Positions 21,770-36,746 of a stretch of 36,746 bases of DNA are shown here, one piece after another. Location of the stretch: assembly GCA_038040445.1 (NCBI GenBank), contig JBBPIG010000029.1:1-36746 (forward strand), written 5' to 3'. The position numbers and the translations under genes were made by a program. Position 1 is the stretch's first letter, and each line of letters starts with the position of its first letter. The notes below the pieces were generated by a model. It was not told the DNA's origin. It worked only from the letters and a program-made list of their open reading frames with translations, and did no database searches. Source of the stretch: Acidobacteriota bacterium (GTDB lineage Bacteria > Acidobacteriota > Blastocatellia > UBA7656).

Positions 21770-24700
21770 ATGAAACCCCCTACTGGCTCAGAGTGCGCAT
21801 ACCATGCTAGCAAGGCGAAGAAGATCATTTCAAATACACGAATTGTTAGATTATTGACGCACCGAATCAGCCCTCTTGCGCGTCTTCGTTTTGCCGCCAT
21901 AGCTTTGGTGGCCGTTTTTTTTCTTGTGACCAGCGGAATCAACTCCATGTTTTCGCGCGGTAGTGCGGTCACCGCGTTTGCAGAAAGTATAGACACCTTC
22001 TCGTCTCTTGATTGTACGACGCCAAAGGACTCGTGGAGTCTCGGCCAGACTGCCTGCGCGGTCGCGACAGGAGCGACGGGCACGCGGCGTATTGGGTGGT
22101 TTGCGCCCGATGGTACTATTGTGGATATAAGCGGTACCTTCACGAGCACCGGGACTGACACCTACGCAATCCCATTAACAGCCCAGGTTGGAACATGGAT
22201 CGTGCGGAGCATCAACGTCGACGGTGACGCGACTGCGACCGCGACCTTCGTGGTTAGTGATCCCGATCAAGCGAAAGCTAATCTTTCGATCATTAAGTCT
22301 GGCCCGCTCCGGATTCCTTCTGACAGTGACATCGTATATAAGGTGACTGTATTCAACCTGGGCCCGGACCCAGCGCCAAATGTCCAGGTCACCGATGCAA
22401 CTCCAGCTAACACCACTTTCGTTTCCGCTACGCAAGATCCTGGCCCAGGCCCGACCTTCACCTGTACGGGTGGGGACTGCTCGACAGGGCCGACAGGATT
22501 GCTAGCTGTAAATGAAAGTGTAAGCTTCACATATGTTTATCATGTAACCGCCGGTACGCCAAACGACACAGTCATCTCCAATACGGCCATCGTCTCCATG
22601 GCCGTAAGCGAACCCCCGACGGAGGAAACTAACCCGGCCGATAACAGTTCGACCGCCGAAGCCATTGTCACCAGTCCGGTCGCCAATCCTTGCACAATCA
22701 ACTGCCCGGCGGACATCAATTTGGATAACAACCCCAACGACCCCAACCCGTGCGTTGCGGTCGCCACCTACACGGATCCTATTTTGTCGGGGAATTGCGC
22801 GGATCCCGACACCGGTCAAACGCCTGCTGTGGTCTGCAGTCCGCCATCAGGCTCGACGCTCCCTCTAGGAACGACTACCGTTACTTGCTCGGGCGGGACA
22901 GCTACTTGCAGCTTCACGGTGACATTAAATGAGACGCGGGCGGCCACTACGCCGACGATCGCTTGCCCGGGGGATATTACTGTTTCTGAAGAGTTCTCCG
23001 GCGCGGAATCGGCCACGGTAACGTATACCCCTACCGTAACAGGCAACTGTGTCGAAGTCGCCTGTACTCCGCCTTCAGGTTCTAGATTCAATTTAGGAAC
23101 CACGCCGGTTACCTGCAGCGGCACGGACTCGTCCAACACCAGCACCGCCCTCTGCACCTTCAACGTAACGGTCAACGCTAGTCCCTGCGGGCTCGCCTGT
23201 GCGGATGATCAAACCGTTAATGAAAGCTCGCCAGGTTCGGGTACTGCCAATGTCACCTACTCAACAGCGACTGCAGTGGGCACTTGCCCAGCCCTGACAA
23301 TCACCTGTACTCCGGCCTCGGGCTCTAGTTTCCCTGTGGGGCTGACTGTGGTTAATTGTACCGGAAGAGACGGGTCGAATAATTTGGTTGCCGGTTGCAG
23401 CTTCACAGTGAGGGTCAATAGTTCTTCTACTTGCGCAATCACGTGCCCGGCTAGCCCCGTTACTGCAAGTGAGAACCCCCCTAACTCAGGCTCGGCTACG
23501 GTCAACTACCCAGCGCCGACAACGGCTGGGAATTGTTCAACTCTTACATGTAATCCGGGGCCATCAGGCTCTTTCTGCTGTAATCCGCCTTCGGGCTCTA
23601 GCTTCGGGGTAGGTACTACGACCGTTAATTGTAGCGCGACAGACCCGGCGGGCAACACTAGTTCTTGTAGCTTCACTGTGGTGGTTACAGGCGGAACTCC
23701 CTGCGTGATCACTTGTCCGGTCAACATCAGTCAATCGGGCAGTGGGTGCGGAAATGTAGTGACTTATTCAACTCCCACCACAACGGGCAGTTGCGGTGGT
23801 GATCCTAACGAACCGCCTTTCCCACCTATCCCGACTTGCAATCCTCCATCCGGCTCCTTCTTCCCTGTGGGCACCACGACCGTTATCTGCTCCACAGATG
23901 TTGGAACGCAGTGCTCATTTACCGTAACGATTACTGGTACTGATACAATCAAACCGGTGATCAGCTTCTGTGCGGTGCCGAGCTTTGCCCCAGCAGATTC
24001 CTGTCAGGCTGTGGTGCCAAATGTGACGAGCCAAGTGGAGGCTTCGGATAACTGCACGCCAGAAAACTTATTGATCGTCACGCAGAGTCCATTGCCCGGA
24101 ACGCTCGTCGGCACTGGCACGACAACGATCACTTTGACGGTCACAGATGCCAGCCTTAACTTTATCACCTGCATGACCACGTTCACGGTTACCGAATCAA
24201 TTCCGCCGACGGCAGTGTGTCAGCCCTACACCGCAGTGCTGGATGCTACCGGCAATGCTTCGATCACCGCGGCTAATGTAGACAATGGCAGCAGTGATAA
24301 CTGCGGCGTTATTGCCTCGCGGACCGTGACGCCCAACACATTCACGTGCGCAAACAAGGGGCCGAATACGGTGACGCTGACGGTGACAGATCCGAGCGGG
24401 AACAGTGCTAGCTGTCTGGCTACGGTCACGGTGGTAGACAACACACCGCCGACGATCACCTGCCCGGCCAGCTTTACTCAATCTACCGACCTGAATCTGT
24501 GCTCGGCAGTGGTGAGCTTCTCTGCGACGGCGAGCGATAACTGTCCGGGCGTAACTTACAGTTGCACCCCCCCATCTGGCTCAACATTCCCGAAGGGGCC
24601 CACGACTGTTAATTGCACTGCAACTGATGCCGGCGGCCTTACGTCGTCAGCCTGCTCGTTCACAGTAACGGTCAACGACACGCAACTGCCGGCGATCGCT

Positions 24701-25201
24701 TGCCCGGCCAACATCGTGGTCGAACCCACCTGCCCGGACGGCGCGGTGGTCACTTATACCGCACCGGTAGGCACAGACAACTGTCCTGGCGCTCTGACGA
24801 TACAGACAGCAGGGCTGGCCAGCGGTTCGACTTTCCCGATCGGGGTGACGACAACCAATACCTTCAAGGTTACCGATACGTCTGGCAATTTCGTGACCTG
24901 CAGCTTTACGGTGAGGGTGAAGACAGCGGCGGAGGTGATCCAGGATCTGATCACTCGGGTCCTGGCGCTGCCCTTAACCGGACAACAGAGTCAGGGATTG
25001 GTTTCCAAACTTCAAGCGGCGCTGGATGCCGTGAACACCGGTAAGACTAACGTCGCCTGCAACAAGCTCGCTGACTTCATCAGTCAAGTTACGGGCTTTA
25101 TCAATAACGGAACTCTTACGTCAGCTCAAGGACAGCCGCTAATTGTCTCGGCTGCGAAGGTCCGGAATACCCTTGGCTGTACGAACCTTGGCTGCACGTA
25201 G
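21770..25201 (+). CDS. giant secreted HYR-repeat protein with DUF11 and FIMAH domains
   Basis: A 1143-residue surface or extracellular protein. A basic leader precedes a hydrophobic segment (41-57), with likely cleavage near 71. An Ig-like part (about 73-165) is followed by a DUF11-like domain (about 170-300; LSIIKSGPLRIPSDSDIVYK, VTVFNLGPDPAPNVQVTDAT). About nine HYR-type repeats follow (about 305-1060); most carry the pattern C.PPSGS.FP.GTTTV.C followed by (A/G)TD, and cysteines are abundant and paired. The C-terminus (about 1063-1140; AAEVIQDLITRVLALPLTGQ, AALDAVNTGKTNVACNKLAD) matches a FIMAH domain. HYR domains are linked to cell adhesion. No LPXTG, C-terminal membrane anchor or sorting tail is visible. 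AAGGAG precedes the ATG. Confidence 0.9.
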   Translation: MKPPTGSECAYHASKAKKIISNTRIVRLLTHRISPLARLRFAAIALVAVFFLVTSGINSMFSRGSAVTAFAESIDTFSSLDCTTPKDSWSLGQTACAVATGATGTRRIGWFAPDGTIVDISGTFTSTGTDTYAIPLTAQVGTWIVRSINVDGDATATATFVVSDPDQAKANLSIIKSGPLRIPSDSDIVYKVTVFNLGPDPAPNVQVTDATPANTTFVSATQDPGPGPTFTCTGGDCSTGPTGLLAVNESVSFTYVYHVTAGTPNDTVISNTAIVSMAVSEPPTEETNPADNSSTAEAIVTSPVANPCTINCPADINLDNNPNDPNPCVAVATYTDPILSGNCADPDTGQTPAVVCSPPSGSTLPLGTTTVTCSGGTATCSFTVTLNETRAATTPTIACPGDITVSEEFSGAESATVTYTPTVTGNCVEVACTPPSGSRFNLGTTPVTCSGTDSSNTSTALCTFNVTVNASPCGLACADDQTVNESSPGSGTANVTYSTATAVGTCPALTITCTPASGSSFPVGLTVVNCTGRDGSNNLVAGCSFTVRVNSSSTCAITCPASPVTASENPPNSGSATVNYPAPTTAGNCSTLTCNPGPSGSFCCNPPSGSSFGVGTTTVNCSATDPAGNTSSCSFTVVVTGGTPCVITCPVNISQSGSGCGNVVTYSTPTTTGSCGGDPNEPPFPPIPTCNPPSGSFFPVGTTTVICSTDVGTQCSFTVTITGTDTIKPVISFCAVPSFAPADSCQAVVPNVTSQVEASDNCTPENLLIVTQSPLPGTLVGTGTTTITLTVTDASLNFITCMTTFTVTESIPPTAVCQPYTAVLDATGNASITAANVDNGSSDNCGVIASRTVTPNTFTCANKGPNTVTLTVTDPSGNSASCLATVTVVDNTPPTITCPASFTQSTDLNLCSAVVSFSATASDNCPGVTYSCTPPSGSTFPKGPTTVNCTATDAGGLTSSACSFTVTVNDTQLPAIACPANIVVEPTCPDGAVVTYTAPVGTDNCPGALTIQTAGLASGSTFPIGVTTTNTFKVTDTSGNFVTCSFTVRVKTAAEVIQDLITRVLALPLTGQQSQGLVSKLQAALDAVNTGKTNVACNKLADFISQVTGFINNGTLTSAQGQPLIVSAAKVRNTLGCTNLGCT

Positions 25202-28270: not shown

Positions 28271-28791
28271 TTTTCTTGATCGTCACCTCGACGTGGTTGG
28301 TAGGCCCGCAAGCACCTCTGCACCCGCATCGCCCAGTAGCATACTAGCTGGCCGGGCCGACCCCTGACAAGAAACCCATTATGCACATCGTCGCCACTTC
28401 AAACCACAGGGCGATGGAGATGTGAAGGCGAAAAAGGCGTGTAGCGGTTATGTACCGCTATCCTTAGCCAGACAAATGCGTTCTCTTTTGGAATGCTTTT
28501 CTAATTGTGCCGGAGCCACCGCTTTTAGCGGTTCAGTTTGGATTTCAAGTTTTAGCTTGCGCTTGCAATCAGCAGCCTGAAGGCTCAACTCTCAACTTAC
28601 CTAAACCACTAGCCTCTGTCACTAAACCACTACCCTCTTGTGCATTTAGTAGCGGCCCGCTAGCATTTGTCTTCTGATGCTCAATGGCCGGCACTAATGG
28701 GCCCTGTCGCGAATCAACAAGAGTCTAGGTTCAATAATCTGGTATGAACTGACTCGGTATGGTCGGCTTAAACGCCGCTATTGTTAGAGCT
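28271..28791. promoter_or_regulatory. spacer with related palindromes and a 21-bp direct repeat
   Basis: About 520 bases with no gene, upstream of the glycan locus. TAGCGGT-TATGT-ACCGCTA lies at 28442-28460 and ACCGCT-TTT-AGCGGT at 28518-28532; the two palindromes share the AGCGGT half-site. A 17-base direct repeat starting CTAAACCACTA occurs at 28601-28617 and 28622-28638 with one mismatch and a 21-base period, two helical turns. These are candidate regulator sites for either flanking gene. I find no convincing -35/-10 pair. Confidence 0.45.
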
Positions 28792-30867
28792 ATGACTAGC
28801 AATCCACTGGTTTCTGTCATAATAATTTTCTTTAACGCTAGGAAATTTTTCCGTGAAGCTACAGAGAGCGTCTTCGCGCAGACTTATGATAACTGGGAAT
28901 TGTTGCTGGTGGATGATGGCTCGACCGATGCCGGCACAGACATCGCCCGGCATTACGCTGAACAACACCGAGGGAAGGTTCGCTACTTTGAGCACAAAGG
29001 TCATCAGAATCGAGGCATGAGCGCTTCGCGTAACCTGGGAATCAGTAACGCAAAAGGTGAATATATCGCTCTGCTCGACGCTGATGACGTGTGGCTGCCG
29101 AACAAACTGGAACGCCAGGTGACTATCCTTAGCTCGCAGCCCCAGGCCGCGATGGTCTATGGGTTATCAGAGTACTGGCACAGTTGGAAGGGGAATCCTG
29201 AAAATGGGCAACGCGATTTTGTGCCGGAGCTTTCCGTTGAGTCCGACACTCTTTTCGACCCGCCTGCGTTGGTCACGCTCTCGTACCCGTTGGGAAGCGC
29301 CCCTACGCCCTGTCCCTCTGATCTCATGTTCCGCCGCGAGATGGCAGAGCGAATAGGCGGATTCGAAGAATCATTCCAGGGCATATATCAGATGTACGAA
29401 GACATAGCCTTCCTGACAAAGGTATACCTCGCGGAAAGAGTGTTCGTAGCGAGCGAGTGCTGGGACAAATATCGCCTGCATCCGGATTCGTGCCATTCAG
29501 TCGTCAAAGGGGCGGGACATTATCACCAGGTGCGATTCTTCTTCTTAAAGTGGCTTAAGAAATATCTGTCCAAACAAGGTGTCGAAGATCGTGAAATCTG
29601 GCTGGCTTTCCATAAGGCGATGGAGCCTTATTGGGCAAACCGCCATCCGTTTGCGAACCGCCTAGCCCCGATCTTGAATCGTATGTTTGGGCGCAACTTG
29701 CATCTGGTGAAGAGTGGCAAACAGAGTATGGTTGCACCGACGAATCTGAAGCCTGCGATTGAAACCAACGATAGCGCCGCACCATCATACGAAGGCTATC
29801 ACGACATAGGGGACTGCGAGATTATCCACGGCTGGGCCTGGGACTCGAACCACCCGGACTTGCCTCTTGAGGTTGACATCTATGACGGCGACCGACTGCT
29901 CGCCACGGTCACAGCAGACGAGTACCGCAAGGACTTGCATGATGCGGGTAAGGGAAGTGGAGAGCACGCGTTCAGCTACAGGGTGCCGGCCAGTTTGAGG
30001 GATGGAAGGGCGCACAGCATCAGGGTGAGGGTCGCCCTTACCGACTTCGATCTCGGATCTACTCCCAAGGAAATCAATTGCGAATTGCAGATAGTTGCCG
30101 ACATCAGAGCGCTTAAAAACAAACTTCGCGGGCAGGCGGCTAAAATAGCGGCGAGGACGCCCCTAGGAGTTCGTCGCTGGGTAATAGTTCGATGGCAAAG
30201 CCTTGAGTACATCCCGCCGGCCGGGCGTGTGCGCTTTGGCGACCTGAGGCGCGTGACTCCGATAAGCCGAGTGTGGGGATTCGACCGCGGCCGCCCCATT
30301 GATCGCTACTACATTGAGAACTACCTCAATCGCCACACTGACGATATTCGAGGGCACGTTCTGGAAATAGGCGACGACACTTACACTTATCGATTCGGCG
30401 GCGATCGTGTTCGCAAAAGTGACGTGGTTAACGTGGTGGAGGGTAACCCGAAAACTACCATCTTGGCAGACATCACATGTGCTGATCATATTCCGTCCGA
30501 CACTTTTGATTGCATACTCTTCGTGCAAACTCTTCAACTCATCTTTGATGTGCGGGCGGCGATCAAGACGCTTCACCGCATACTCAAGCCCGGTGGAATC
30601 CTTTTAGCGACATTTCCGGGCATCAGCCAGATCAGCGACCAACTTTGGGGAGATTACTGGTGTTGGAGTTTCACAACACTGTCAGCGCGGAGGCTGTTTG
30701 CGGAGGTCTTTTCCGAGGACAAGCTTAAGGTGGAGGCCCACGGCAATGCGCTGGTAGCGATCAGCTTTCTCGAAGGACTGGCGGTTGAAGAATTGCGGCA
30801 GGAAGAATTAGACTATCACGACCCCGGCTATGAAGTGTTGATAACGGTCGAGGCAGTGAAAGCATAA
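28792..30867 (+). CDS. GT2 glycosyltransferase - GWAWD module - SAM methyltransferase fusion
   Basis: A three-domain protein of about 691 residues. First, a GT2 domain (about 5-300): VSVIIIFFNARKFF, LLVDDGSTD, RGMSASRNLGIS, LLDADDVW with the DxD element at 95-98. Second, a beta-rich module of 98 residues (333-430) with EGYHDIGDCEIIHGWAWDS and VDIYDG. Third, a class I methyltransferase (about 515-690) with GHVLEIGDDTYTYRFGGDR, DTFDCILFVQTLQLIFDV and LKPGGILLATFPG. I infer sugar transfer and methylation or related tailoring of one glycan. The start at 28792 is chosen from the GT2 family pattern; an in-frame ATG at 28759 is possible and neither has a strong ribosome site. The substrate is unknown. 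Confidence 0.85.
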   Translation: MTSNPLVSVIIIFFNARKFFREATESVFAQTYDNWELLLVDDGSTDAGTDIARHYAEQHRGKVRYFEHKGHQNRGMSASRNLGISNAKGEYIALLDADDVWLPNKLERQVTILSSQPQAAMVYGLSEYWHSWKGNPENGQRDFVPELSVESDTLFDPPALVTLSYPLGSAPTPCPSDLMFRREMAERIGGFEESFQGIYQMYEDIAFLTKVYLAERVFVASECWDKYRLHPDSCHSVVKGAGHYHQVRFFFLKWLKKYLSKQGVEDREIWLAFHKAMEPYWANRHPFANRLAPILNRMFGRNLHLVKSGKQSMVAPTNLKPAIETNDSAAPSYEGYHDIGDCEIIHGWAWDSNHPDLPLEVDIYDGDRLLATVTADEYRKDLHDAGKGSGEHAFSYRVPASLRDGRAHSIRVRVALTDFDLGSTPKEINCELQIVADIRALKNKLRGQAAKIAARTPLGVRRWVIVRWQSLEYIPPAGRVRFGDLRRVTPISRVWGFDRGRPIDRYYIENYLNRHTDDIRGHVLEIGDDTYTYRFGGDRVRKSDVVNVVEGNPKTTILADITCADHIPSDTFDCILFVQTLQLIFDVRAAIKTLHRILKPGGILLATFPGISQISDQLWGDYWCWSFTTLSARRLFAEVFSEDKLKVEAHGNALVAISFLEGLAVEELRQEELDYHDPGYEVLITVEAVKA
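29788..30081 (+). repeat. GWAWD module copy A (in the GT2-methyltransferase)
   Basis: A 98-codon unit from YEGYHD to KEINC. By eye it matches copy C at 84 of 98 residues, and the DNA is also highly similar over long stretches, indicating recent duplication or gene conversion among three copies in this locus. Predicted beta-rich, with conserved GWAWD, VDIYDG, LLAT, EYRKDL, AGKG.G, HAFSYRVPA, TDFDL and TP(K/R)E elements. Confidence 0.85.
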
Positions 30868-31122
30868 AGTCGTAAAGACATGCGCCAGAGCAGATTGCGG
30901 CCAGCGGGGTTTTTCTCGACATCCAGGTTGCATCCAGGAATCTCATCCTGAGATACCAAGGCGTTGACTGGCATTGAAGAAAAGTTATGGTGCCGCGTCG
31001 TGAAAGAGCGCGAGATAGAGATATATATTCGGGGCCTCAATTATTCCTCTTTTGACGCGCTGGAGATCAGCGGCACTCAAAGTTGTCTGGGCATTCGCCC
31101 GCAAGCAGCCTAGCTGAGTCGT
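30868..31122. other. 255-base spacer with a short direct repeat
   Basis: No gene is seen. CATCCAGG occurs at 30920-30927 and 30931-30938 (11-base period). A GGGC-ATTC-GCCC hairpin lies near 31090-31102. This part is locally more AT-rich than the flanking genes. Confidence 0.35.
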
Positions 31123-31605
31123 ATGTTTATGCCGAGTAAACTTGTGTGAGTGATTATTCCCTGCTACAACCAGGCTCATTTCTTAAGCGAAGCGATTGAA
31201 AGTGTACTCTCTCAAACTTACCCCCACACCGAAATCATCGTGGTTGATGATGGTTCAACGGATAACACCTCAGAGATAGCCGCCCGCTATTCGTGTGTCC
31301 GCTGCGTACGCCAGAGCAATCAGGGCCTGGCGGCGGCGCGCAACAGAGGGCTCAGCGCGAGTAAAGGGAGCCACCTGATTTTTTTGGACGCGGACGATCG
31401 CCTTGTGCCTGATGCTATTGAATACGGCTTATGCTGTTTGAATGCTCACCCGGAATGCGCTTTCGTCGCCGGGCACGTCAGGCTTATTGCCTCTGACGGT
31501 TCACCGCTTCCTACCCCGCCGCAGCCCTGCGTAAAGAGAGAGCATTACCTCGAGACGAGTTCATATCAAGCACTGGTTCCCTCTGATCGAAAGCGAGGAG
31601 AATGA
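31123..31605 (+). pseudogene. broken GT2 glycosyltransferase (in-frame stop and truncation)
   Basis: The frame starts ATG TTT ATG CCG AGT AAA CTT GTG, meets TGA at 31147-31149, and continues VIIPCYNQAHFLSEAIESVL, IIVVDDGSTDNTSEIAARY, AAARNRGLSASKG and LIFLDADDR. GT2 proteins of this type read '...LVSVIIPCYN', so the stop occupies the expected Ser codon (TCA to TGA is one change). The protein also ends near residue 160, shortly after the nucleotide-binding half, whereas the family usually runs to about 300. A GTG at 31150 could restart translation, but the missing C-terminal half makes a working enzyme unlikely. Confidence 0.75.
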
Positions 31606-31802
31606 GATTAGGCGATGCAGCGAAAGTATAATGCGGATGATATATTTATCGGTGGCCTCCCGACAATATTTTACAGATACGAGGCTCGTGTTTATACTTT
31701 GATTCGCCCAATAACCTATCGCCTATGTCGTTGAGGATATGGTTCTGCTATTGAGTATCTGGAATAGGGAGTTTCAAAGATACACACACCCTGTCTAATC
31801 AG
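31606..31802. other. AT-rich remnant region
   Basis: Two overlapping frames give protein-like but unassigned text: one reads HIKHWFPLIESEENEIRRCS, the other GLPTIFYRYEARVYTLIRPI and ends in a basic Arg. They may be the eroded C-terminal part of the broken GT2 or another gene, but I cannot place them. Base composition is clearly more AT-rich than in the neighbours. Confidence 0.3.
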
Positions 31803-34481
31803 ATGAGCACTGCTAAGACCAAAAAAAGGGACGGCGCGGTTGATGACGCGCCGTCATACGAAGGGTATCACGACATAGCGGACTGCGAGATAGTCGAGGG
31901 CTGGGCCTGGGACGCCAGCCGCCCGAACTTGCCGGTCAAGGTAGACATCTACGACGGCGACCAGTTGCTTGCAACCGTGACCGCCGACGAGTACCGCAAG
32001 GACTTACAGCAGGCTGGCAAGGGAGGTGGCAGCCACGCGTTTAGCTACCGGGTGCCGGCGAGGTTGAGGGATGGGAAGGCGCACTTCATCACTGTGAGGA
32101 TATCTGATACTGATTTCGACCTTGAGTTTACTCCTAGGGAATTCCAATCTGCGCCTGTAATGACCATTGACAATCTTTCACCTCATCAAAACGAAACAAT
32201 CTACGATGACCAATTCTTTGATAAGATCACGGACTCCGCTTTAACTTCGGCGCGAATCATCGTCCCCTTACTGCTGAATTACATAGACCCCAAAAGCGTG
32301 ATAGACATTGGCTGCGGGCGGGGCGCATGGCTAAAGGCATTCCAAGAGAATGGCATCACAATCGTACGAGGGCTGGATGGCGACTATGTAGACCAGTCGA
32401 AACTATTAGTTAATCAGGCGAATTTTACAGCGACAGACCTTAGCGAGCCATTTGATGTAGACGGGCAATACGATCTAGTTGTTTGCCTCGAGGTTGCAGA
32501 ACATTTGCCTGCCAGCTCCGCTAAACAATTGATTGCCACTTTGACGAAAGCCGTCCAATTAGTTCTGTTTTCGGCGGCGATCCCTTATCAGGGCGGTGAC
32601 GGCCATCTAAATGAACAGTGGCCGGAGTATTGGGAATCGCTATTTGAAGAGTATGGATTCCGAAGACTCGATCCCATTAGGCGGTACATATGGCAAGACA
32701 AACGAGTTGCTCCCTGGTATCAACAGAACTTATATCTATTCGTCAGCGACGTCGCTATCGCAAACTCAGAAATCCTAACAACAGAGCAGCAGCGTGCGCG
32801 CAATCAGCCGGTTGAATGCGTCTGCAAAGACATTCTCAATCATCTAGTGCGGCTCTCATCTCGGATAGCGGCAAGCGAACGGAGGGTCGAGGCGCTGATG
32901 GCGAAGTTGACAGGCAAAGAAAGAATCATTGGTGCACGAGATGAGGAAATCGAATGGCTCTCCGCACAGGTCGCCGAAAGGCAAAAGACCATTGTCGCGC
33001 AGGAACAAAAGATTGCACATCTCTCCTCTCAGAAGGCAGAAAAGATAGAGGCTTTGCCTAGTTTAGAATCCGTTTCGGATGCGAATAGCGACGCGCCGAA
33101 ATACGAAGGGTATCACGACATAGCGGATTGCGAGATTATTCACGGCTGGGCCTGGGACTCTAACCACCCGGACTTGACTCTCAAGGTGGACATCTATGAC
33201 GGCGAACGGCTGCTCGCCACCGCCACGGCAGACGAGTATCGCAAGGACTTGCAGCAGGCGGGTAAGGGAAGCGGAGAGCACGCATTCAGCTACAGGGTGC
33301 CAGCCCGATTGAAGGACGGTGAAGCGCACAGCATCAGGGTAACAGTCGCTGCTACTGATTTCGACCTCGGATTTACACCCAAAGAAATCAAATGTGTCTC
33401 CGAAACGGCTACTGAAAGACGTATATCGAATGTGGAGCAGAGCCTCGACCCGGCGCGCGCGGGCCACCTCGCGGCTCGTGCGCTTATCCTGATGTATCAC
33501 AGCGTTGGCGAAGTCAAATCAGACCCCTGGTCGCTGTATGTGGCGCCCGGCCACTTTGCTGAACAATTAGAGGTTCTACGAAAGAACTATCACCCTATAG
33601 GATTACGGCAATTAACTCAGGCGCTTCTGGATGGCGGCATTCCAGACAACGCGGTGGTCATCACATTTGATGACGGTTACGCAAACAACCTGTATAACGC
33701 CAGACCGTTGCTTGAGCGATTTGATGTGCCTGCAACTGTCTTCATGACTACGGGAAACATCGGTCGCGAGCGCGAGTTCTGGGATCACGAGCTGGAAAGG
33801 CTATTGTTGCAGCCCGGCACTTTGCCGGAAGTGCTGCGATTGAGAGTTAATGGGAATGCTTACGAATGGAAACTGGGTCGAGCGGCTCACTACAGTGAAG
33901 ACGACTATCAGACTAATCTCAAGTGGAGGGGCTGGGAGACGTATAATCCGACGCGTCGCCATACACTCTTCCGCTCGCTTTATGACTTGTTGCTTCCTTT
34001 GTCTAGCGGTGATCGTCAAAAAGCAGTCGATGATTTGGTTTCGTGGGCGGGCGTTGAAAGGGCGGGCCGGGCAACGCACCATCCTCTTTCGCTCGACGAG
34101 TTAATAACTCTGGGTGATTGTGAACTGGTCGAGATCGGCTCTCACTCGGTGACGCATCCGGTGTTCTATCATCTCTCACCGCCATTGCAGCGAGGTGAGA
34201 TTCACCAGAGCAAAGCTCATCTGGAAGAGATACTGGGTCGGGCGGTGACCAGCTTTGCGTATCCCTATGGCTGTTACGTCGAAGAGACGGTCGCCATCGT
34301 TCGGGAGGCAGGCTATACTTGTGCCTGCTCCACGGTTGTTAACCCTGTGGAGTCAGGCGCAGACCCGTTTCAACTGCCTCGAATTGAAGTGCACGATTGG
34401 AATGGTGAAGAGTTCGCTGAACAGCTATCGCGCTGGCTCCAGGTTCGCTCCATCTCTGCGAGGCGCGAGTCACCGCAGTAG
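31803..34481 (+). CDS. GWAWD - methyltransferase - coiled coil - GWAWD - NodB polysaccharide deacetylase fusion
   Basis: An 892-residue five-part protein. Module copy B (19-115) is followed by a class I methyltransferase (about 150-315): SVIDIGCGRGAW (165-176) binds SAM, then DLVVCLEVAEHLPA and a C-terminal YWESLFEEYGF. A coiled coil (about 345-415; KERIIGARDEEIEWLSAQVA) leads to module copy C (434-531). The last part (about 555-885) is a NodB-type carbohydrate esterase: LILMYHSVGE, TFDDGYANN (621-629) with the metal/base Asp pair, HSVTHP (781-786) with the His pair and FAYPYG (818-823). It should remove acetyl groups from a polysaccharide. No signal peptide is seen, which is odd for a deacetylase, so it may act on a cytoplasmic, lipid-linked glycan. 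ATG 31803 has only a weak ribosome site. Confidence 0.87.
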   Translation: MSTAKTKKRDGAVDDAPSYEGYHDIADCEIVEGWAWDASRPNLPVKVDIYDGDQLLATVTADEYRKDLQQAGKGGGSHAFSYRVPARLRDGKAHFITVRISDTDFDLEFTPREFQSAPVMTIDNLSPHQNETIYDDQFFDKITDSALTSARIIVPLLLNYIDPKSVIDIGCGRGAWLKAFQENGITIVRGLDGDYVDQSKLLVNQANFTATDLSEPFDVDGQYDLVVCLEVAEHLPASSAKQLIATLTKAVQLVLFSAAIPYQGGDGHLNEQWPEYWESLFEEYGFRRLDPIRRYIWQDKRVAPWYQQNLYLFVSDVAIANSEILTTEQQRARNQPVECVCKDILNHLVRLSSRIAASERRVEALMAKLTGKERIIGARDEEIEWLSAQVAERQKTIVAQEQKIAHLSSQKAEKIEALPSLESVSDANSDAPKYEGYHDIADCEIIHGWAWDSNHPDLTLKVDIYDGERLLATATADEYRKDLQQAGKGSGEHAFSYRVPARLKDGEAHSIRVTVAATDFDLGFTPKEIKCVSETATERRISNVEQSLDPARAGHLAARALILMYHSVGEVKSDPWSLYVAPGHFAEQLEVLRKNYHPIGLRQLTQALLDGGIPDNAVVITFDDGYANNLYNARPLLERFDVPATVFMTTGNIGREREFWDHELERLLLQPGTLPEVLRLRVNGNAYEWKLGRAAHYSEDDYQTNLKWRGWETYNPTRRHTLFRSLYDLLLPLSSGDRQKAVDDLVSWAGVERAGRATHHPLSLDELITLGDCELVEIGSHSVTHPVFYHLSPPLQRGEIHQSKAHLEEILGRAVTSFAYPYGCYVEETVAIVREAGYTCACSTVVNPVESGADPFQLPRIEVHDWNGEEFAEQLSRWLQVRSISARRESPQ
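31857..32147 (+). repeat. GWAWD module copy B
   Basis: 97 codons, residues 19-115 of the deacetylase fusion. It has the same landmarks as copy A (GWAWD, VDIYDG, ADEYRKDLQQAGKG, HAFSYRVPARL, TDFDL), but is more diverged than copies A and C are from each other. Confidence 0.85.
33102..33395 (+). repeat. GWAWD module copy C
   Basis: 98 codons, residues 434-531, between the coiled coil and the deacetylase domain. It is closest to copy A (14 residue differences counted by eye) and shares EIIHGWAWDSNHPDL with it. Confidence 0.85.
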
Positions 34482-34623
34482 AAATATTTTGTTTGTAGCC
34501 GTTCGACCCGGCTTATCTAAACTCATTATGCCGATATTACGACTCGCGGCGTAAACCAGCGGAGTTGGTTGTCTTGCACGCAGCCCGCACTGGGTGGTTA
34601 TTTTCGTTCGCTGACAAGGAATA

Positions 34624-35985
34624 ATGAAGATCGCCGTTCTGACTCCCACTATACCTGAGCGCGAAGTGTTCCTCAGAGAATGCATAGAGGCAGTGCGCCG
34701 CCAGACTTTAAAACCTTATGTGCACGTCATAACGATAGACTTCGGTCGGGTCGGCCCCACACGGATACGAAACGGGATGGCCGCAAGCACAGACGCGGAT
34801 TGGCTCGCGTTTGTGGATGATGACGATCTGATTGATCCCGAACATCTGGAAGTGTTGGCAAGACACTCAGTCGGATTTGACATCATCTACTCAGACTGCC
34901 GCGTGGTAGGAGCCGAGGTGCCCTGGAAGGTACGGCAATTCGATTTGCAGGCAGTGAGGCAGGCTAATTACGTACCGATCACCGTGTTGATGCGGCGAGA
35001 ATTATTCCTCGAGCTGGGCGGGTTTCATTTAGATCGCGGACCAATTGGCGAGGACTGGGACTTGTGGATTCGCGCCGGTGAAGCCGGAGCACGGTTCCGG
35101 TTTGTGCCTCAGGTCACATGGACGTACAGGCTCCACAGCGGCAGCCGCACGTTGTTGTCGTCTTCCGAGCAGGAATTTGCCGGTCAAACTCGTTCCACCA
35201 GTGCAGAGTTTGAAGCGCAAGTCGCCGATGCTGATGCGGCCCGAAAGGAGTTAATGAAGACGAGCACGGATGGCGCGAATCAGACGGATCTTGACTCGCC
35301 GTTGCCTCTCATCCTGGCTAGAGAGACAGTCATAGATAATCAGCGTCTCGGACTAAGCAACGGGATTGAATACTGGAGCCGCACATACGATGGTGGAGAT
35401 ACAATCGTCAAACAAACTAGTCTGGATTTGGCAGAGCGCGAAGCCTACTTTCTTTCGCAGTTGACCGGCGAGTATTTCCCGCGAGTGAGGGATAATAAGT
35501 CAGAAGATGGATATTCAGTGATCGTGATTGAGGGAATTTACGGTGTTCCTCTGTCAGAGGCAGTGGCGAGCATTAATTCTCGCCCCGCCAGCTTGCTCAA
35601 CTTTATCTATCATTGTTTGAGCGCGCTTGCCGAGTTAAAAAGTAAAGGGATCATCCATCGAAATATCTGTTTTGAGAATATTTTCGTCAGGGATGAGAAG
35701 CCGATACTGATTGACTTCGCTCAGGCTATCTCCGAGAGACGACCTTTCACGGCCACAGAGCACTTAGGCGGCTACGGCAGACCGCCCGACGGAGGTTTTT
35801 GTGACGTTTATTCGATGGGCAAAGTGATCGAGCGAGTAAATCGCCACCGTCACCTCTCATTCGATCCCGTGATAGAGTTGATGACGGAGTTGGATGCTTC
35901 GTTAAGAATTACAGACTTGAAGACACTACGGATGCTCTTTACGCACGCGATCCAGCGGCCCGCGAAAAGGAAACAAAAACAATGA
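34624..35985 (+). CDS. GT2 glycosyltransferase - kinase-like domain fusion
   Basis: A 453-residue two-domain protein. The GT2 half (1-180) opens MKIAVLTPTIPEREVFLREC and shows the acidic FVDDDDLIDPEH (DDDD at 65-68) and GEDWDLW (142-148). After an acidic linker, a protein-kinase-like domain runs from about 228: IVKQ with Lys263, EREAYFLSQL as the C-helix, IIHRNICFENIFV as the catalytic loop, ILIDFAQAI as the DFG position and CDVYSMGKVI as the F-helix. The catalytic-loop Asp is replaced by Asn347 while Asn352 and Asp364 remain, so phosphotransfer may be lost or altered. It may phosphorylate a sugar or lipid carrier, or act as a pseudokinase scaffold. The following gene overlaps its stop (ATGA). 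Confidence 0.82.
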   Translation: MKIAVLTPTIPEREVFLRECIEAVRRQTLKPYVHVITIDFGRVGPTRIRNGMAASTDADWLAFVDDDDLIDPEHLEVLARHSVGFDIIYSDCRVVGAEVPWKVRQFDLQAVRQANYVPITVLMRRELFLELGGFHLDRGPIGEDWDLWIRAGEAGARFRFVPQVTWTYRLHSGSRTLLSSSEQEFAGQTRSTSAEFEAQVADADAARKELMKTSTDGANQTDLDSPLPLILARETVIDNQRLGLSNGIEYWSRTYDGGDTIVKQTSLDLAEREAYFLSQLTGEYFPRVRDNKSEDGYSVIVIEGIYGVPLSEAVASINSRPASLLNFIYHCLSALAELKSKGIIHRNICFENIFVRDEKPILIDFAQAISERRPFTATEHLGGYGRPPDGGFCDVYSMGKVIERVNRHRHLSFDPVIELMTELDASLRITDLKTLRMLFTHAIQRPAKRKQKQ

Positions 35986-36746
35986 GGACTATAGATACTT
36001 GTGAACAGTCCGAAGATCATCAAAATCCCGAAGCATACGACCTGACAATTCGCCACCTTCTGGATCAAATTTCGAAGCGGAGCCAGCGCCTCAATCTCTT
36101 GAGGATGGAGCAGGAACGGCTGACTCAGCAGATCGCAGTGAAAGAGCAAGCAATAGAGGCGCTGAGAAAACAACTGACAGACAAAGAGAGAGTTCTTCTC
36201 GCGCGCGACGAGTCAATTGCTTCTCTATCGACCCGAGTAGCGGAAAATGACGACATCATTGCCGAGCGGAATAACGCGATAGACTGCCTCCGGGACGTAT
36301 TGGCCAAGGCTCAACAGGCTGCGTCAAATCAACTGGTCGAGCGCGAGCGAGCTGTGCAATCGCTTTCGGAGCAGCTGGAGCAAATGCAGAGTGCTCTCGA
36401 CGAAAAAGAGAAAGCCGTTCGGGCCGGGGTTGAAGCGAATCAATTACTGGAATCACAAATAGAATCGCTTTCGGCAGAACTGGCTGGGCAGCAAGAAAGA
36501 GTTTTAGAGCTTGCAGTGCAGCTATCGGAGAGAGAGGAGGCGGCGCGGAATCGTTCAGCGCAAATCGAGGAGAGAGAAAGAATCATTCGCGAAACGAAGG
36601 AGTCGATTAACTATCTGGAAAGCGAGCTGGCTGATTCCCAAAAGAAGTCGGCTGATTCCCAAAAGAAGTCGGCTGACTCCCAAAAAAAGTCGGCTGACTC
36701 CCAAGAGAAGTTGGCTGACTCCCAAGAGAAGTTGGCTGACTCCCAA
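35982..36746 (+). CDS. long coiled-coil protein (partial, runs off the window)
   Basis: The ATG at 35982 overlaps the stop of the GT2-kinase gene (ATGA), so it is coupled to it. The 255 codons seen are open to the window edge. After a short leader (MRTIDTCEQSEDHQNPEAYD) almost the whole product is coiled coil (RMEQERLTQQIAVKEQAIEA, LRKQLTDKERVLLARDESIA, ESQIESLSAELAGQQERVLE). From residue 217 it becomes an exact seven-residue repeat, ADSQKKS changing to ADSQEKL. Coiled coils with similar 'KER...SLSAQL' text occur in the glycosyltransferase at 19017 and the deacetylase fusion, where they precede catalytic domains, so a glycosyltransferase or methyltransferase domain may follow beyond the window. 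No signal peptide is seen. Confidence 0.8.
   Translation, partial: MRTIDTCEQSEDHQNPEAYDLTIRHLLDQISKRSQRLNLLRMEQERLTQQIAVKEQAIEALRKQLTDKERVLLARDESIASLSTRVAENDDIIAERNNAIDCLRDVLAKAQQAASNQLVERERAVQSLSEQLEQMQSALDEKEKAVRAGVEANQLLESQIESLSAELAGQQERVLELAVQLSEREEAARNRSAQIEERERIIRETKESINYLESELADSQKKSADSQKKSADSQKKSADSQEKLADSQEKLADSQ
36630..36746 (+). repeat. 21-nt tandem repeat encoding coiled-coil heptads
   Basis: Units begin at 36630, 36651, 36672, 36693 and 36714, with a partial sixth at 36735-36746. Each encodes a seven-residue unit (ADSQKKS, later ADSQEKL). Units 1-3 and 4-5 form two sequence variants. The period equals one heptad, so copy-number change lengthens the coil without frameshift. The array continues past the window. 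Confidence 0.95.

Follow-up and report, generated by a model that had tools for sequence, protein, structure and literature searches.

What does a small, beta-rich module contribute when it recurs within one locus on a GT2 glycosyltransferase, two methyltransferases and a NodB-type deacetylase? Three copies of such a module, here called GWAWD, occur in the window, by which we mean the whole analysed stretch of 36,746 nucleotides from an Acidobacteriota genome (Table 1). They lie, to the base, where the original prediction, made from the DNA letters, had placed them, and searches with copy C recover the other two with E values far below chance. Its count of 84 identical residues in 98 was likewise right for copies A and C, which agree at 83 of the first 97 positions and in the last cysteine, and open reading frames (ORFs) together with Pfam matches confirm the fusions it had described to a GT2, two methyltransferases and a NodB deacetylase. 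The domains that flank the three copies are mutually non-homologous.

Table 1 Features of the window discussed in the text, in forward-strand coordinates.
Feature	Position	Strand	Basis or remark
GT2–GWAWD–class I methyltransferase fusion, 702 aa	28759..30867	+	ORF; PF00535 E 2.6e-32, PF13489/PF08241
GWAWD copy A, linking GT2 to methyltransferase	29788..30081	+	copy C query, E 3.9e-56
Methyltransferase domain, Methyltransf_11/23-like	30229..30864	+	Pfam; other modules or none on G011, G421 and other homologues
Short GT2 ORF, 151 aa, between both fusions, probably truncated	31150..31605	+	ORF, Pfam
GWAWD–methyltransferase–probable coiled coil–GWAWD–NodB-type deacetylase fusion, 892 aa	31803..34481	+	ORF, Pfam
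GWAWD copy B, without C-terminal Cys	31857..32147	+	copy C query, E 3.8e-49
GWAWD copy C, directly N-terminal of deacetylase	33102..33395	+	search query; structure modelled on copy C
NodB-type polysaccharide deacetylase domain	33477..34445	+	Pfam; methyltransferase gene neighbour in relatives
GT2 with protein-kinase-like (RIO/Bud32-type) domain	34624..35985	+	RIO1 22.5 bits, cut-off 22
Coiled-coil-like ORF, leaves window into N gap	35982..36746	+	ORF

Inspection by eye for a signal peptide found none in the 702-residue fusion, and Pfam models cover only the second half of its methyltransferase domain. In the 892-residue fusion, the methyltransferase (PF13489, E 1.9e-12, residues 160–259) and the deacetylase (Polysacc_deac_1, PF01522, E 3.5e-23) are joined by a stretch around residues 340–425 whose assignment as a coiled coil comes from weak Pfam matches only. 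By-eye comparison of the 151-residue ORF found look-alike GT2 genes of 308–316 residues in the locus of another genome (G020).

Long near-identical DNA had also been claimed for the copies, with the suggestion that they are still recombining; the first part failed and the second found no support. Over 291 nucleotides, 249 positions are identical between A and C, 226 between A and B and 224 between B and C (77–86%), with longest identical runs of 20, 20 and 26 nucleotides; four-fold sites differ at 14 of 34, 17 of 29 and 16 of 28 positions in the three pairs, and dS ranges from 0.56 to 1.2. Given this dS, and longest shared runs of 3–4 of 84 polymorphic sites that are no excess by permutation (P = 0.42–0.98), ongoing gene conversion is unsupported. 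The copies form one clade (support 95/83), and their dN/dS of 0.11–0.19 points to constraint on the GWAWD sequence.

GWAWD has no existing family model in Pfam or NCBIfam: the three window modules match no Pfam family at E values up to 10, and so no known CBM family, and nothing in NCBIfam. A sequence search of the PDB returned a single match at chance level (E 1.7), and among copies from three other loci searched against Pfam one (L032) matched CBM_4_9 at 16.3 bits (E 0.013), below the cut-off of 25.9, a hit to which we give no weight. Searches of the open-licence literature found no published description of the module. AlphaFold2, run as a family model on copy C, gave a confident 98-residue beta sandwich with seven strands of at least three residues (mean pLDDT 97.1). 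A VIA-align fold search placed the Nir2 C-terminal domain at the top (Z 8.5), followed by mixed matches at Z 6.6–7.8, many of them Ig-like or FN3-like; Wzt_C could not be spotted in the 50 fold matches listed, an absence without evidential value, and Foldseek reached a best E value of 0.011. GWAWD, as modelled, is best explained as an unnamed, probably Ig-like beta-sandwich accessory domain.

Across 162 genomes of the class, 21 ORFs have a strong GWAWD match, and 18 of these were read, some partly: glycan proteins and exported surface proteins account for 8 each, and the remaining 2 are unknown. This even split does not bear out the expectation of modules mainly in glycan loci; that the module is joined to unrelated proteins is supported. 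For the eight ordinary surface proteins a structural role would be enough, which counts against reading the module as CBM-like. Two proteins considered as deacetylases, on contig C1 of G000 and in G005, were counted as unknown (no Pfam match, and 14.6 bits against a cut-off of 23.1, respectively). Module contexts comprise exported surface proteins, lone lipoproteins, PMT-type membrane proteins and sugar enzymes of Azospirillum plasmids, and Larkinella soli alone has 46 matches. All five matches on Azospirillum brasilense p5 fall in four genes, annotated as acetyltransferase (one) or glycosyltransferase (three), and in Azospirillum and Neotabrizicola the module is joined to GT group 1. On plasmids, all 8 hits examined have an annotated glycosyltransferase nearby, as do 4 of 7 control stretches; this comparison, which covered 8 of 30 records and lacked a drawn control for one of them, we set aside as weak. 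Both short distant relatives examined have non-glycan neighbourhoods, and the fifth copy of the source genome sits in a protein without a Pfam match, among what we take to be trp/aro genes; both observations weigh against a CBM-like role. Scanning genome contigs with the bare module, a method that reaches close relatives, yielded a single relative. Phage or viral spread was rejected, as phage records contained no match and none of 24 viral stretches that fit a pattern was confirmed.

The principal finding comes from relatives of the window enzymes, in which GWAWD, PNPI and CBM_4_9 interchange at a single slot. In G011, G020, G019 and G108, a homologue of the window's methyltransferase adjoins one of its NodB-type deacetylase. 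In G011, both start with a common beta module, PNPI, which lacks a Pfam or NCBIfam model, is rarer than the widespread GWAWD, has no detectable relation to it (hhalign probability 0.2%) and is modelled as a similar beta sandwich. In G421, CBM_4_9 stands directly N-terminal of the methyltransferase in all three homologous proteins, two of which repeat the window's order with a GT2 in front. PF02018 reaches 27.7 bits in one of the three and 22.6 and 18.2 in the others; that a single protein exceeds the 25.9 cut-off counts against a CBM-like reading. The same slot holds a coiled-coil-like stretch in G243 and is empty in G020 and G186. Plain local duplication could also produce the matching of modules within a locus. 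No module is present in 15 of 20 aligned methyltransferase homologues (a label assigned without reading in two rows, G341c3 and G243c104), indicating that it is dispensable for catalysis. Module-bearing rows cluster on the methyltransferase tree at a support of 75/87, which is not significant, so one gain with later swaps would fit equally well, and separate gains of each module type are unsupported; the deacetylase tree was unable to settle the branching order.

A second arrangement concerns PMT-type proteins, which in G027 and G015 have GWAWD at the C-terminus. The G000 and G002 orthologues (36–48% identical to these) are without it and have as neighbour a gene for a small lipoprotein in which GWAWD is the sole recognisable domain, a fusion-or-neighbour (Rosetta-stone) pattern. 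PNPI parallels GWAWD in this, being found at the C-terminus of a PMT-type protein and in lone-module lipoproteins.

That other modules, one of a recognised carbohydrate-binding type, fill the slot of GWAWD in relatives suggests that GWAWD probably holds a sugar chain. We give about even odds (roughly 0.5) to GWAWD being a CBM-like module of polysaccharide assembly that works on both sides of the membrane, with sugar binding as its predicted activity and the polymer of its own locus as its predicted ligand. As in CBMs, it is a discrete domain on carbohydrate-active enzymes (GT2 in one window fusion and Polysacc_deac_1 in the other, GT group 1 elsewhere), and its AlphaFold2 model is a beta sandwich. 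The window fusion proteins appear cytosolic, and the lipoproteins and PMT C-termini outward-facing, judging by eye from the sequences and from knowledge of the families. In the cytosol, GWAWD would keep a growing, probably lipid-linked, polysaccharide near the extending GT2, the methylating enzyme and the de-N-acetylating NodB domain, presumably acting in that order; outside the inner membrane, GWAWD on PMT-type proteins and small lipoproteins would touch the exported polymer. The module is best read as recruited from exported proteins. Of the original proposal of a recombining docking or glycan-binding unit, the glycan-binding part thus gains indirect support from CBM_4_9 in the same slot in G421, and the recombination part is unsupported.

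Glycan binding appears favoured over docking, in which GWAWD would bind another protein or itself and so gather the enzymes of the locus into one complex. Ig-like domains often mediate protein contacts, and one module type is found on several enzymes per locus (GWAWD in the window, PNPI in G011, CBM_4_9 in G421), both of which speak for docking. However, GWAWD is also carried by presumed exported or periplasmic proteins (the PMT C-terminus and lipoproteins), out of reach of cytosolic enzymes, and the modules that interchange with it include a carbohydrate-binding family, CBM_4_9; we regard docking as unlikely.

We also doubt, somewhat less strongly, that GWAWD is an inert spacer, a stable Ig-like fold spread by duplication that separates catalytic domains without binding and that a similar fold or a coiled coil could replace. 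The coiled-coil-like or empty slots of some relatives, the abundance of the module on surface proteins (46 matches in L. soli) and the single clade of window copies, which fits local duplication, would agree with such a role, but the dN/dS values mark a constrained sequence, the small lipoproteins have nothing to keep apart, and copy B begins at residue 19 of its protein with no domain before it. Finally, GWAWD could mark substrates, the proteins that bear it being themselves glycosylated by the locus, as the adjacency of lone-module lipoprotein genes to PMT-type genes and the occurrence of GWAWD on surface proteins of several genomes might suggest; yet cytosolic-looking GWAWD enzymes would not encounter a periplasmic PMT, which leaves this highly improbable.

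A CBM-like reading of GWAWD would give a testable role to two modules without a Pfam or NCBIfam model, GWAWD and PNPI, and the homologous methyltransferases and deacetylases, whose modules nature has already swapped, could show whether the choice of substrate or chain in surface-polysaccharide assembly depends on the accessory module. It would also add candidate proteins with CBM-like modules in relatives of the source genome and on Azospirillum plasmids; according to a 2024 paper, one Klebsiella protein was the sole terminator enzyme with an identified CBM (PMC11231755). More speculatively, and with considerable doubt, polysaccharide-assembly enzymes may have in common a fixed place at which a glycan-recognition cassette can be exchanged, with one cassette per locus on both membrane sides and the whole set switching with the polymer. 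If true, the cassette would be a readable label of the polymer that a locus makes.

Among known systems, CBM_4_9 (PF02018) occupies the same slot before a homologous methyltransferase in G421 and differs as a separate sequence family that none of the three window modules matches. The nodulation enzymes NodC, NodS and NodB act on one amino-sugar oligomer and comprise the same trio of GT2, methyltransferase and NodB-type deacetylase as the window; we know of no accessory module in them, and the model for NodB proper (TIGR04243, cut-off 240) matches the window protein at 18.8 bits. Wzt_C (PF14524), the carbohydrate-binding domain of Wzt, binds capped O antigen in O-antigen export (PMC9445017). 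Like the proposed GWAWD, it is a cytosolic-side beta sandwich, and it recognises a lipid-linked polysaccharide by its modified end, but it is a jelly-roll dimer on a transporter ATPase (PMC9445017). GWAWD has no Pfam match to Wzt_C and is fused to GT2, methyltransferase and deacetylase domains, not to an ABC-transporter ATPase. Wzm/Wzt with Wzt_C is absent from the window locus on contig C29, the only Wzt_C match of the genome being on C4; in G019 and G020, the enzyme pair has a Wzt_C match at a distance of about 5 kb and 8 kb, respectively. An Ig-like CBM is also predicted in ORF6-O7, the O7 chain terminator of Klebsiella pneumoniae, which resembles the window proteins, by description and not by sequence, in placing an Ig-like beta module within a multidomain methyltransferase/coiled-coil/GT2 protein of surface-polysaccharide assembly (PMC11231755). 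Of the features of such WbdD/ORF6-O7-type terminators, which serve ABC-transporter-dependent O-polysaccharide assembly, the window has the methyltransferase, and weak Pfam matches suggest a coiled coil. Whereas ORF6-O7 has a single module, after a kinase-type domain and before the coiled coil (PMC11231755), those of the window precede the methyltransferase or NodB domain, occur several to a locus and, across relatives, interchange with modules of two other families.

The GWAWD module is a genuine and widespread domain for which the libraries searched contain no family model, and we read it as an accessory module resembling a carbohydrate-binding module (CBM) that sits in an exchangeable slot just before homologous methyltransferases and deacetylases, a reading to which we give a probability of about one half. 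Its three copies in the window, whose coordinates the original prediction had exactly right, lie in two fusion proteins, and none of them matches a model in Pfam or NCBIfam. The AlphaFold2 model, built from 34 aligned copies, is a seven-strand beta sandwich with a mean pLDDT of 97.1. Foldseek returned no match to this fold at E < 0.01; with VIA-align the top row was the Nir2 C-terminal domain (Z 8.5), followed by a mixed set (Z 6.6-7.8) with many Ig-like or FN3-like entries, a list that suggests to us an Ig-like module. A copy from another genome (G058, L032 1501-1794) has a sub-threshold match to CBM_4_9 (E 0.013, 16.3 bits versus 25.9), which could be due to chance or reflect a faint relationship of GWAWD to that family.

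Features of the window discussed here
Position	Feature	Length (aa)
21770-25201	Probable surface protein containing DUF11 and four HYR stretches	1143
28759-30867	GT2 - GWAWD - methyltransferase fusion, at the window's right end	702
29788-30081	GWAWD copy A
30229-30864	Methyltransferase domain
31150-31605	Probably decayed GT2 gene, lying between the fusion genes	151
31803-34481	GWAWD - second methyltransferase - probable coiled coil - GWAWD - NodB-type deacetylase, at the window's right end	892
31857-32147	GWAWD copy B
33102-33395	GWAWD copy C
34624-35985	GT2 with protein-kinase-like (RIO/Bud32-type) domain
36629-36746	21-bp tandem repeat (ADSQKKS-type residues), crossed by a coiled-coil-like ORF and continuing into an N gap where the window ends

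By eye, the short GT2 ORF resembles longer GT2 genes (308-316 aa) at the G020 locus (L125). At its start, the methyltransferase family of the first fusion has a conserved RVTPIS...RGxPIDRYYIE stretch. The Pfam models for methyltransferases cover just the second half of the domain, whose SAM-binding motif I seems atypical on visual inspection.

Searching relatives by enzyme rather than by module, we found homologues of the window methyltransferase in 8 of 158 class genomes and 12 of 297 phylum genomes (E up to 1e-30), and of the deacetylase in 6 of 158 class genomes (E up to 1e-40); the two genes adjoin in G011, G020, G019 and G108. A module stands directly before the methyltransferase in 5 of 20 aligned rows (16 genomes), all from three genomes: GWAWD in the window, a second beta module, PNPI, in G011, and CBM_4_9, a recognised carbohydrate-binding domain, in three G421 proteins, only one of which exceeds the Pfam cut-off (two of the 15 module-less rows were labelled as such without reading). 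The deacetylase is preceded in this way in 2 of 10 rows, by the window's GWAWD and by the PNPI of G011. A single gain with later exchange of modules could explain these patterns as well as independent gains. One 1166-aa protein of G421 (L169 5053-8547, minus strand) unites the whole enzyme set as GT2 - CBM_4_9 - methyltransferase - NodB deacetylase. The window GT2 shares 48-51% identity with its counterparts in G020, G421 and G108. The GT2-PNPI-FkbM protein of G011 has a layout similar to the window fusion; we rejected its GT2 as an orthologue because identity is only 32% over 121 residues.

G243 carries a coiled-coil-like stretch in the slot, G020 fuses GT2 and methyltransferase with nothing recognisable between them and G108 has three separate genes. 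That GWAWD acts as a spacer we consider doubtful, and a docking unit, one of the two roles named by the original prediction, somewhat more so. CBM_4_9 filling the same slot points to glycan binding.

PNPI mirrors GWAWD in its protein contexts. It is modelled as a beta sandwich (pLDDT 96.4, best fold row Z 9.3), and a profile comparison with GWAWD gave a probability of 0.2%. None of five copies matched NCBIfam, Pfam gave nothing beyond one chance-level row, and no plasmid record matched; 8 of 158 class genomes hold it. In G011 it ends a PMT-type membrane protein at the C-terminus, next to a gene for a lone-PNPI lipoprotein; further such lipoproteins occur in G157 and G003, and PNPI is also found on YD-repeat-like and other exported proteins. 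GWAWD is likewise fused to PMT orthologues (G015, G027) or carried by a separate neighbouring lipoprotein gene (G000, G002). The G000 orthologue, which has no Pfam match of its own, is tied to PMT_2 by its 44-48% identity to the G027 and G002 proteins.

The source genome holds five GWAWD copies: the three in the window, one on a 158-aa lipoprotein-like protein (lipobox by eye) roughly 7 kb past the 892-aa gene on the same contig, and one on a 452-aa protein of another contig. With a cut-off of E 1e-5, the module is matched in 52 of the 162 class genomes. Strong matches (E < 1e-20) are confined to 14 genomes and 21 ORFs, and several of these copies were themselves rows of the search profile. 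Among the 18 of these ORFs that were read, some in part and with export judged by eye, eight are exported multidomain proteins, three are membrane proteins with a C-terminal module (PMT_2 in two, DUF7657/DUF7654 in one), three are lone-module lipoproteins, two are sugar-enzyme fusions, both from the window, and two are of no recognised kind. Eight ordinary surface proteins thus stand against eight of glycan kinds, which argues against a glycan role, and the plasmid neighbourhood control was weak, with a glycosyltransferase annotated near 8/8 hits and in 4/7 control stretches.

More widely, 23 of 247 genomes in the phylum draw match, including a protein (L103) in which three modules precede a GT2 domain and a GT group 1 match that falls below threshold. 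In Larkinella soli the matches number 46, and 30 of 72,556 plasmid records match, 15 of them from Azospirillum. Many genomes of f3 and f6 also encode proteins of about 150-170 aa (at L105, L106 and comparable loci) that combine a short GWAWD-like module with what looks by eye like a single membrane helix; neither of two short-form neighbourhoods examined is a glycan locus. Sulfatase-type membrane proteins in several genomes of genus g111 (L107, G244:C10) bear weakly matching modules near the C-terminus.

In the alignments, a cysteine near residue 10 and another near residue 98 are conserved in full-length copies carried by exported proteins; the second is missing from copy B, and the pair from the seven plasmid copies. 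From this pattern we infer an exported ancestor for the window copies. These are homologous over the module itself and a few residues ahead of it, and their flanks differ. DNA identity among the three is 77-86%, dS is 0.56 (A-C), 0.85 (A-B) and 1.23 (B-C) and dN 0.08-0.16 (NG86). In the tree they group in one clade (support 95/83) that excludes the remaining 32 copies, and so appear to be local duplicates maintained by purifying selection; the original prediction had them still recombining, and we saw no sign of ongoing sequence exchange. Local duplication alone could yield matched modules within a locus.

We favour glycan binding because one function then covers cytosolic enzymes, the outer side of PMT proteins and lipoproteins. 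The module would bind something present on both membrane sides, the polysaccharide or its lipid-linked form, and may hold the chain on the enzyme set during extension, methylation and deacetylation. The GT2-kinase gene of the locus and an APH-type kinase gene, which in G011 lies beside the module-bearing enzymes, recall O-antigen methyl/phosphate capping; since the only Wzt_C match in the source genome is on another contig, we do not assign the locus to that pathway. Precedents for the proposed role are the carbohydrate-binding domain of Wzt (PMC9445017) and the predicted Ig-like CBM of the Klebsiella O7 terminator (PMC11231755).
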